DNA of 64,000 nt from NCBI RefSeq assembly GCF_023169965.1, contig NZ_AP025592.1, positions 2,418,001 to 2,482,000 of the forward strand, written 5' to 3'. Below, piece after piece: positions 30,218 to 45,467 of this stretch (position 1 is the first letter of the stretch; each line of letters starts with the position of its first letter). Source of the DNA: Anaeromyxobacter paludicola (GTDB lineage Bacteria; Myxococcota; Myxococcia; Myxococcales; Anaeromyxobacteraceae). A model generated the notes under the pieces. The model was given only the letters and a program-made list of their open reading frames with translations. It was not told the DNA's origin and ran no database searches. Made by a program: the position numbers and the translations under genes.

Positions 30218-30257
30218 AAGAAGGCCGGCTCCAACGCGGAGCCGGCCTTCTTCGTTT
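30218..30257 (+). terminator. Intrinsic terminator of tRNA-Leu
   Basis: A perfect 14-bp stem (30218-30231 with 30239-30252) with a 7-base loop is followed by a short T-rich tail (CGTTT). It begins 5 bases after the tRNA end and isolates the tRNA from the arginine operon. Confidence 0.9.
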
Positions 30258-42781: not shown

Positions 42782-43750
42782 CTATCCGCCCAGGTAGCGC
42801 GCGAGGGCCCGATCGACCGCCTCGTCGAAGTGGCGGCGGGCCTCCGGCGGCGAGAGCACCTCCGCCTCGCCGCCGAACGAGAGGACAAAGCGGGTGGCCC
42901 ACTCGGCGTCGGCCCCCTCGACCTCGACCACCACCTCGCCCTTCGGCCCGCTCTCCACCACCCGCAGCCGCGCGGGCCGGGCGAGCGCCCAGGCGGCCGC
43001 GACCCGCGACAGCCGGAGCCGGATGGGCTCGCCGCGGGCCTCGGAGAAGAGGCGCGCGCGGGCCAGGGCCGCCGGGGGCGGCGGCTCGAAGGTCTCCTCG
43101 AGGACCGCGCAGTCCTTGATCCGGTCGAGGCGGAACGGCAGCTCGCGCCCGCGGTCGCGGTCGTGGCCGAAGAGGTACCAGTGGCCGAAGCGGCGGGCCA
43201 GGGTGTAGGGGCGGACCACCCGCTCCTTCTCCTCCGTCCGCCCGGCGGTCACGTGGACGATCCGCACCGCGCGCCGCTCGGCGATGGCGCGGGTGAGCCG
43301 CCCCATCACCGACTCCCGGGCCGGCGGCGAGCCGGCGTAGATCCGCTTCGCGAGCTCGTCGTAGCCCTTGCGCCGCTCGCGCGGCACCGCCTGGCGGAGC
43401 GCCTCGAGCACCCGCTCCTTGCCCTCGCCGGCGAGCGCCTTCACCGCCGCGGCGAGCGCCGCCGCCTCGCTCTCGGTGAAGCGCGGGGGGCGCGTGAAGC
43501 TCTGGTGCAGCGCCACGTAGACCCGGTCGCGCTCCACGTAGAGGTCGAGGAAGTCGTCGGGCGCGAAGGGCGGGCAGCCCACGGTGAGCAGGAAGTCGAG
43601 GTCCTCCAGGAGCTGCGCCTCGCTGGTCCCGCAGCGCTCCGCCAGCTCGCGCACGGTGATGCCCGGGTGGCGCACCGCGTAGGGCACGAGGAAGAGCACG
43701 CGGCGGAGCCGCTCGCGGGGATCGTCCTTGCGCGCCGCCTCGGCCTTCAC
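42782..43750 (-). CDS. WYL-domain transcriptional regulator 2
   Basis: A 322-residue regulator. An N-terminal winged-helix region (about 15-60, I-T-V-R-E-L-A-E-R-C-G-T-S) is followed by a WYL domain with the exact H-W-Y-L-F-G-H-D motif near residue 210 and L-P-F-R-L-D-R-I, and a C-terminal WCX extension. It starts at GTG 43750, overlapping the stop of the upstream WYL gene (GTGA). Tandem WYL pairs are known from PafB/PafC, which respond to DNA damage; whether that applies here is unknown. It is the second gene of the pair. Confidence 0.88.
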   Translation of the reverse strand: MKAEAARKDDPRERLRRVLFLVPYAVRHPGITVRELAERCGTSEAQLLEDLDFLLTVGCPPFAPDDFLDLYVERDRVYVALHQSFTRPPRFTESEAAALAAAVKALAGEGKERVLEALRQAVPRERRKGYDELAKRIYAGSPPARESVMGRLTRAIAERRAVRIVHVTAGRTEEKERVVRPYTLARRFGHWYLFGHDRDRGRELPFRLDRIKDCAVLEETFEPPPPAALARARLFSEARGEPIRLRLSRVAAAWALARPARLRVVESGPKGEVVVEVEGADAEWATRFVLSFGGEAEVLSPPEARRHFDEAVDRALARYLGG

Positions 43751-44754
43751 GCCCGCCTCCGCGCGAGCCCCTGGAGCACCGCCCGGGCGCGCCGCCGCAG
43801 CCGCGCCGGCGCGAGCACCTCGGCCCGCTCGCCGAGCGCGAGCGTGTGGCGCAGGAGCGCCTCCGCGTTCGTGACCTCGAGCTCCACCACCACCCCGCCC
43901 GCCTCGTCGAGGAAGCGGGCCCGCGGGCCGAACGAGGCGCGGTCCTCGGCAGAGACCGGCCCGTCGAGCCGCACCCGCGCCTTCTCCGCCGCGTGCACCG
44001 CGTACTCCCACGCCTCGCGGGTGGCGAGCTCGGCGAGCGAGAAGTCCCGCGGCACCTGGAAGTCCCGGCTGCGCGGCTGCGCCCGGTTCACCTCGAGGGC
44101 CTGGATGCGGGCGAGGTGGAAGGTGCGCAGCGCGCCCCGCAGGTGGCAGTGGCCGGCCAGGAACCAGGAGCCGCCGCTCTGGTAGAGGCCGTACGGGTCC
44201 ACGTCGCGGGCGGTGGTCTCGGTCCGCTCGGCGCCGGCGTAGGTGAGGTGCACCCGCTTCTGCGCGGCGATGGCGCGGGAGAGCTCCTCGAGCAGCGCCG
44301 GCACCTGCCCCCGCCCCTGCCCCTCGCCCGACGAGAGGCTGCGGGCCGCCATCGCGGCGGCCTCGGAGGCGCCCGGGCTGCGGGCGGCGAAGGAGAGCTT
44401 CTCGAGGGCGTGCGCGAGGTCGCGGGCGTAGGGGAACTCGCCGCCGGCAAGCGCCGCCGAGCCCGAGAGGTAGAGCAGGGCCAGATCCTCCGGGGGCAGC
44501 TTCAGATCGGGGAGGTAGAAGTCGTCCTTGTCGATGAGGTAGCCGGCCGGCAGGTCCTCGTCGGCCGCCAGCCACCGCACCGGGATCCCGAGCTCGAGCA
44601 GGTCGGCCTTGTCCCGCTCGAACTTGCGGATGGCCGCGTCCTCGGACCCGCCGTAATCCTCCTGGAATTGTTCCTGGATGTCGCGCCAGGACACCGGCTC
44701 GGCGGCGCGCAGGAGCAGGGCGGCGAGGTCGAGGAGTCGCTGCGCCTTCTGCAT
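43747..44754 (-). CDS. WYL-domain transcriptional regulator 1
   Basis: A 335-residue regulator from the ATG at 44754; the open frame reaches 44817 but the extra residues are inside the operator region. A helix-turn-helix (about 15-60, including D-Y-G-G-S-E-D-A-A-I-R-K-F-E-R-D) leads to a WYL domain whose motif reads W-F-L (S-W-F-L-A-G-H-C) near residue 200 and a WCX domain at the end. It is co-translated with WYL regulator 2. A perfect inverted repeat lies 17 bases upstream of its start and is shared with the divergent gene at 44835. Confidence 0.88.
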   Translation of the reverse strand: MQKAQRLLDLAALLLRAAEPVSWRDIQEQFQEDYGGSEDAAIRKFERDKADLLELGIPVRWLAADEDLPAGYLIDKDDFYLPDLKLPPEDLALLYLSGSAALAGGEFPYARDLAHALEKLSFAARSPGASEAAAMAARSLSSGEGQGRGQVPALLEELSRAIAAQKRVHLTYAGAERTETTARDVDPYGLYQSGGSWFLAGHCHLRGALRTFHLARIQALEVNRAQPRSRDFQVPRDFSLAELATREAWEYAVHAAEKARVRLDGPVSAEDRASFGPRARFLDEAGGVVVELEVTNAEALLRHTLALGERAEVLAPARLRRRARAVLQGLARRRA

Positions 44755-44770
44755 GGGCCGGCGACCTTGG

Positions 44771-44800
44771 CACGCCGATTGGGGCGAGTCAATCGGCGTG
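44771..44800. promoter_or_regulatory. Perfect 11-bp inverted repeat, WYL operator candidate
   Basis: CACGCCGATTG (44771-44781) and its exact reverse complement CAATCGGCGTG (44790-44800) are separated by 8 bases. The element lies between the WYL pair and the divergent gene at 44835, and it covers the spacer of a rightward promoter made of TTGGGG (44779-44784) and TATCAT (44802-44807), 17 bases apart. A protein binding here would block rightward transcription and could autoregulate the WYL genes. Confidence 0.75.
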
Positions 44801-44807
44801 GTATCAT
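44779..44807 (+). promoter_or_regulatory. Rightward promoter of DUF1054-like gene
   Basis: -35 TTGGGG at 44779-44784 and -10 TATCAT at 44802-44807 with a 17-base spacer. Transcription would begin near 44814, leaving a leader of about 21 bases before the ATG at 44835. The -10 box matches the consensus at five of six positions; the -35 is weaker. The inverted repeat at 44771-44800 overlaps both elements. Confidence 0.5.
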
Positions 44808-44834
44808 CCGGCGACACGCTGGCGGAGGGCCTTC

Positions 44835-45467
44835 ATGGCAGGGCTCGGCATCGGTCCAGACGACTTCGCGCTCTTCGAGATCGACGATCCCGAGGAGCGG
44901 GCGGAAGCCGTCGAGCGCGTGCTCCACCCCAAGCTCCAGCTGATCGGCGCCCACCTCGCGTCCGGCCTGTCGCGCGTCGCCGGGGCCGACCTCTTCGCCC
45001 ACCTCGGCAAGACCGTCCGCCGGCGCGGCGCCCCGCCCGAGGAGGCGTTCGTCGCCTTCTGCCGGAGCGACAAGGGCTACCGGACCGACCCCTACCTCGC
45101 GCTGCTGGTGACCCGCGGGCTCCTGCACGCCCGCGTGGTGGTGAAGACCGGCGCCGATCGGAGCGGCGCCATGCGCGAGGCGCTCACCCGCGAGGCCGGC
45201 AACCTCGCCCGGAAGGGAAAGCCCTTCCGGCAGCTCCGCCCGTTCATGGGGTGGGACTACGAGGAGCTCCCGGAGCTCGCGCCGGCCCACTCCGCCGCCT
45301 TCTGGCAGGAGCTCGCCGACGAGCTCGCGCCGGCCGCGCAGAACGGCGGGATCGACGTGGGCGTGGTCTGGCCGGTCGAGGAGGCGCGCAGCCTCTCCGT
45401 GGGCGACGTGCTCGGCGCCTTCCGCGACCTCGCGCCCCTGTACAAGCTCCTCGCCCACGCGGCCTGA
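44835..45467 (+). CDS. DUF1054 (UPF0637)-like protein
   Basis: A 210-residue protein. The pattern D-D-F-A-L-F-E-I near the start, a helix with H-P-K-L-Q-L-I-G-A-H-L-A, then F-A-H-L-G-K-T-V-R-R, W/F-V-A-F-C-R-S-D-K-G-Y-R and a strand with A-R-V-V-V-K-T resembles the DUF1054 family (Bacillus YktB type), whose structure is known but function is not. This match is from memory of family pattern and should be checked by profile search. It is transcribed away from the WYL pair across a shared operator, so it is the best candidate target of those regulators. Confidence 0.6.
   Translation: MAGLGIGPDDFALFEIDDPEERAEAVERVLHPKLQLIGAHLASGLSRVAGADLFAHLGKTVRRRGAPPEEAFVAFCRSDKGYRTDPYLALLVTRGLLHARVVVKTGADRSGAMREALTREAGNLARKGKPFRQLRPFMGWDYEELPELAPAHSAAFWQELADELAPAAQNGGIDVGVVWPVEEARSLSVGDVLGAFRDLAPLYKLLAHAA

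Follow-up and report, generated by a model that had tools for sequence, protein, structure and literature searches.

Described WYL-domain regulators that resemble the pair examined here include PafB and PafC of mycobacteria and other actinobacteria (PafBC), which activate transcription through an asymmetric −26 motif combined with sigma adaptation; in mycobacteria, the PafBC promoter motif of target genes is TGTCRGTG-N8-TANNNT. WYL regulators of the BrxR and CapW type instead repress their own locus, and BrxR does so by binding 11-bp inverted repeats (PMC9122601). Within the Myxococcota, the Myxococcus xanthus pair MXAN_1359/1360, homologues of PafB and PafC, is under LexA control and is induced by mitomycin C (PMC12288472, PMC9705874).

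The locus considered here lies in a 64,000-nt stretch of the Anaeromyxobacter paludicola genome (hereafter the window) and contains two adjacent genes of the PafBC type. WYL1 (43747-44754, minus strand) encodes a PafB-like wHTH-WYL-WCX regulator that matches PafB over its full length (E = 9e-22, residues 3-326), and WYL2 (42782-43750, minus strand), which begins with GTG and overlaps WYL1 by 4 nt, encodes a PafC-like protein with HTH_PafC, WYL and WCX domains. This arrangement of adjacent PafB-like and PafC-like genes, each with HTH, WYL and WCX domains, is kept throughout the family. WYL1 also retains four of the five arginines of the PafB groove: R183, R206, R210 and R216 align with PafB R181, R204, R208 and R214, which form part of the groove that binds single-stranded DNA (ssDNA; PMC11804915). 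These four residues are invariant in 21 orthologues and a histidine replaces PafB R211, so that by alignment the WYL domain of WYL1 is predicted to carry the positively charged ssDNA groove. Residues A40 to L53 of WYL1, inferred to form its recognition helix, also show almost no variation across all 21 orthologues. The structure model of WYL1 was poor (pLDDT 68) and was excluded from the analysis. A second cluster in the same genome, near 1897326-1899586, contains three WYL domains, and one of its proteins is about 41% identical to WYL1.

WYL1 and WYL2 are probably orthologues of MXAN_1359/1360. In a Myxococcus-like genome (G050), the corresponding pair matches better (47% identity) than the second WYL pair does, and the sequence upstream of it comes close to the published SOS box; it is on these two points that we judge orthology likely. 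In contrast to the M. xanthus pair, the neighbor here is a DUF1054 gene, and no SOS box of the M. xanthus type was seen in the spacer between WYL1 and DUF1054.

The divergent gene (44835-45467, plus strand) encodes a DUF1054 (YktB-like) protein of family PF06335 (Pfam E = 3e-17), with a profile score of 63.7 bits against a curated cut-off of 27. Its predicted structure (pLDDT 91) has the YktB fold over the entire protein, with TM-scores of 0.82 to 2A8E and 0.78 to 3MQZ, although the proteins in these structures share only about 20% identity with it. Titles and abstracts of the few papers found to name the family mention no function for it.

The spacer between the two genes contains a perfect inverted repeat at 44771-44800, CACGCCGATTG-GGGCGAGT-CAATCGGCGTG, with 11-bp arms and an 8-bp spacer. 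Both the exact palindrome and its distance of 17 bp from the WYL1 start are as the initial annotation had described them. An 11-bp dyad in this spacer is rare for a chance occurrence: we counted 22 perfect repeats with arms of at least 11 bp and loops of 3-14 bp in 464 kb of the 4.59-Mb genome, which gives about 0.004 such repeats expected per 81-bp spacer, and when the spacer itself was Markov-shuffled 4000 times, only 3 shuffles produced a repeat as good. Across the whole window, a scan could conceivably find one such repeat by luck. The initial annotation had also proposed looking for further copies in the genome, and none was found apart from the locus itself with up to 3 mismatches in all 4.59 Mb. 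For the inner 24-bp form of the repeat, a search of the genome allowing 2 mismatches likewise found nothing beyond the locus, and with 3 mismatches the number of matches is near the control count. A composite of half-site and −10 element, CAATCGGCGTGN[TC]ANNNT, occurs with at most 1 mismatch only at the WYL1 and DUF1054 promoters in both genomes of the genus, and because it is confined to these two promoters the repeat is unlikely to be the site of a global regulator.

Several other identities of the repeat were considered and rejected. As a terminator or RNA element it has a stem without a T run, no Rfam match and a fold z-score of only −1.9, and no terminator-like site (a GC-rich hairpin followed by a T run) is present in 44600-44950. 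It does not resemble the M. xanthus SOS box and lacks the recurrence in the genome, for its inner 24 bp at up to 2 mismatches, expected of a global regulator's site or a LexA box. A candidate sigma-54 promoter, TGGCACG-N4-TTGG at 44768-44782, comes close, but it has TTGG rather than TTGC and does not persist outside the genus. Elsewhere in the window, at 30218-30252, there is another hairpin with a 15-bp perfect stem, AAGAAGGCCGGCTCC...GGAGCCGGCCTTCTT, which is terminator-like.

A scan of the spacer region with the sigma-70 consensus found no site, and both promoters described here are predictions from sequence conservation. The DUF1054 promoter has an extended −10 element, TG-G-TATCAT (44799-44807, plus strand; hexamer at 44802-44807), which recurs as TGNTANNNT in all 16 genomes (1.4% expected). 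The initial annotation had paired TATCAT with TTGGGG (44779-44784, plus strand) at 17-bp spacing; the −10 element is well supported, but the −35-like element is weak and is found in this genus only. On the opposite strand, WYL1 has the −35 element TTGACT (44787-44792), its TTGAC core being present in 14 of 16 genomes against 5.7% expected, and, 17 bp away, an extended −10-like element, TG-C-CAAGGT (44764-44772; hexamer at 44764-44769), with TGN preceding the called −10 in 12 of 15 genomes. In 15 genomes no more than 7-11 nt separate the called WYL1 −10 from the ATG (44754-44769 in the window), so that the WYL1 mRNA is probably near-leaderless or leaderless. Transcription is predicted to begin near 44757 for WYL1 and near 44814 for DUF1054.

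The two −10 boxes are thus separated by 32 bp (44770-44801), and in both genomes that carry the palindrome the repeat fills this gap and has the same axis. The outer end of each arm supplies the TG of one extended −10 element, and the inner end supplies a TTG at the −35 position of a promoter. Within the family, the −10 hexamers are 28-39 bp apart.

We compared the locus among 24 Anaeromyxobacteraceae genomes. WYL1 has a match in all 24 and a close orthologue in 22, the exceptions being G012, with only a fragment at a contig edge, and G017, with only weaker matches. DUF1054 is present in 16 genomes, including this one, and in all of them it is divergent from WYL1 with 76-92 bp between the starts. 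In one genus (g6) and in genome G009, which lack DUF1054, WYL1 lies a few dozen bases behind a coiled-coil gene, the same gene that lies beyond DUF1054 where DUF1054 is present. Because the pair persists in several genomes without DUF1054, it is not a regulator dedicated to DUF1054. A search of contigs gave no matches with a single-protein query and 11 loci with an alignment query, all apparently from the Anaeromyxobacter family. A link between DUF1054 and WYL genes outside this family was looked for and rejected: in two other Myxococcota with DUF1054, no WYL gene was seen by eye in the stretches of flanking sequence inspected.

The palindrome is present in only 2 of the 16 genomes with the divergent arrangement, this one and its congener G001, in which the arms are 12 bp long. 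The initial annotation had named absence of the repeat from relatives that keep the genes as a refutation of its proposal, and at the family level this is the pattern found, with 14 of 16 genomes lacking the repeat; Anaeromyxobacter sp. PSR-1 is an example of a relative without it. Its "compact regulator-operator-target unit" is not supported, given this distribution, the persistence of the WYL pair without DUF1054 and the occurrence of the pair across the order. The spacer of another genome (G002) has a different short repeat, CGGATGG-N9-CCATCCG, and lacks TTGAC; this repeat is short enough to be due to chance.

Sequence conservation of the interval between the −10 boxes was compared with that of fourfold sites. 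This genome and G001 are identical at 31 of 32 interval positions and at 66% of fourfold sites. Close pairs without the palindrome gave 28/30 (63% at fourfold sites), 28/31 (69% and 67%) and 26/30 (71%), and each of the other close pairs tested, whether it had a palindrome or lacked one, showed 87-100% identity in the interval. Since the interval is equally conserved in pairs without the palindrome, its conservation in this genus alone is no proof that the dyad matters. The family therefore has a functional interval in common whose sequence drifts between genera, and the palindrome is a single lineage's version of it.

The reading that we favor, with a probability of roughly 0.4, is that the repeat serves as an operator private to this locus, recognized by a WYL protein encoded there, and co-regulates both promoters. 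The binder would be a dimer of a local regulator, WYL1 being the most likely one, by itself or together with WYL2; sitting on the dyad it would cover both promoter cores and keep its own operon and DUF1054 jointly repressed, until binding was altered by a nucleic-acid ligand of the WYL domain. The palindrome would then be an innovation of this genus alone, and relatives would have a regulatory interval of non-palindromic sequence at the same position. In favor of such an operator are the exactness and rarity of the dyad, its coincidence with the inter-−10 interval and its axis, the confinement of the composite to these two promoters, the near-identity of the interval in G001, and the divergent order with overlapping promoters kept in 16 of 16 genomes that have DUF1054. 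The operator reading of the initial annotation is supported in part, in that the geometry suits control of both divergent promoters and the two WYL proteins are similar to PafBC, a pair that senses nucleic acids. BrxR, a WYL dimer that represses through 11-bp inverted repeats, provides a precedent, and its operators are likewise not universal (PMC9122601). As for BrxR, an inverted repeat (11-8-11) lies upstream of the regulator gene, but the spacing of BrxR sites is 5 bp rather than 8, WYL1 is closer in sequence to PafB than to BrxR, and relatives rarely keep the repeat with the regulator; the genes seen immediately around the locus include none for defence. The strongest point against the operator is that other genomes lack the palindrome even though the inferred recognition helix of WYL1 is almost constant: if the specificity of WYL1 has not changed, it ought to have sites of some other kind as well. 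Analogy with mycobacteria also speaks against it, PafBC there being an asymmetric heterodimeric activator and not a repressor that binds palindromes. It is unlikely that the fuller scheme holds in all its parts, namely that a PafBC-type WYL pair autoregulates through the palindrome, couples a nucleic-acid signal to DUF1054 and had its operator rebuilt in one genus.

The main rival to the operator is that the symmetry belongs to the promoters and has no cognate protein. The overlapping promoters would have come to share the same core from −35 to extended −10, perhaps when an inverted copy of one half formed during replication and was retained as promoter sequence, and competition for RNA polymerase would be the sole regulation. 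This is possible, if somewhat doubtful. Promoter elements (TTG and TG) account for about half of the bases in the arms, the half on the DUF1054 side resembles a family-wide GTCAA..GTG block whereas the other arm looks new, the repeat is restricted to one genus, and the interval is conserved without palindromy in all other clades tested. Nevertheless, the mid-arm TCGGC is not a promoter determinant and yet is equal in both arms and kept in G001, and a chance dyad of such length is rare in the spacer. Alternatively, an ssDNA-bound WYL1-WYL2 heterodimer might activate by sigma adaptation, as PafBC does, from an asymmetric site just upstream of the DUF1054 extended −10, the palindrome being incidental. 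The likeness of WYL1 to PafB and of WYL2 to PafC agrees with this, as do the DUF1054 promoters, all 16 of which show an extended −10 but share no −35 element, most with a conserved GTCAAYGTG block upstream. GTCAA is, however, equally explicable as the reverse of the WYL1 −35 TTGAC, GTCAACGTGTGNTANNNT is found no more than about once per genome and nearly always at this locus, and the mycobacterial motif, with 3 matches in the 24 family genomes and not one in this genome, is all but missing and was rejected as the site type. Given this rarity and absence, there is no sign of a regulon built on a common motif, and we consider activation of this kind quite unlikely. A perfect dyad across two promoters is also the usual form of a dimer operator, which would suit an unrelated regulator encoded elsewhere; but an unlinked regulator usually controls itself or other genes, and with no second site for the inner 24 bp at up to 2 mismatches such a regulator seems improbable.

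There is nothing unusual in a palindrome that spans divergent promoters; what is less ordinary is a PafBC-type pair beside DUF1054 and a palindrome confined to one genus. If the pair does read the site, the locus would be a small, testable system for the choice of DNA sites by nucleic-acid-sensing WYL regulators outside actinobacteria, and would offer an initial clue to DUF1054, an uncharacterised family. Related genomes in which the genes are the same and the intervals differ would serve as natural controls for operator change under a constant regulator. In genome G009, one of those without DUF1054, an exact GTCAACGTGTGGTAGGGT (G009:C100:48925-48942), its −10 preceded at 17 bp by TTGACT, is found upstream of a CarD-like gene.
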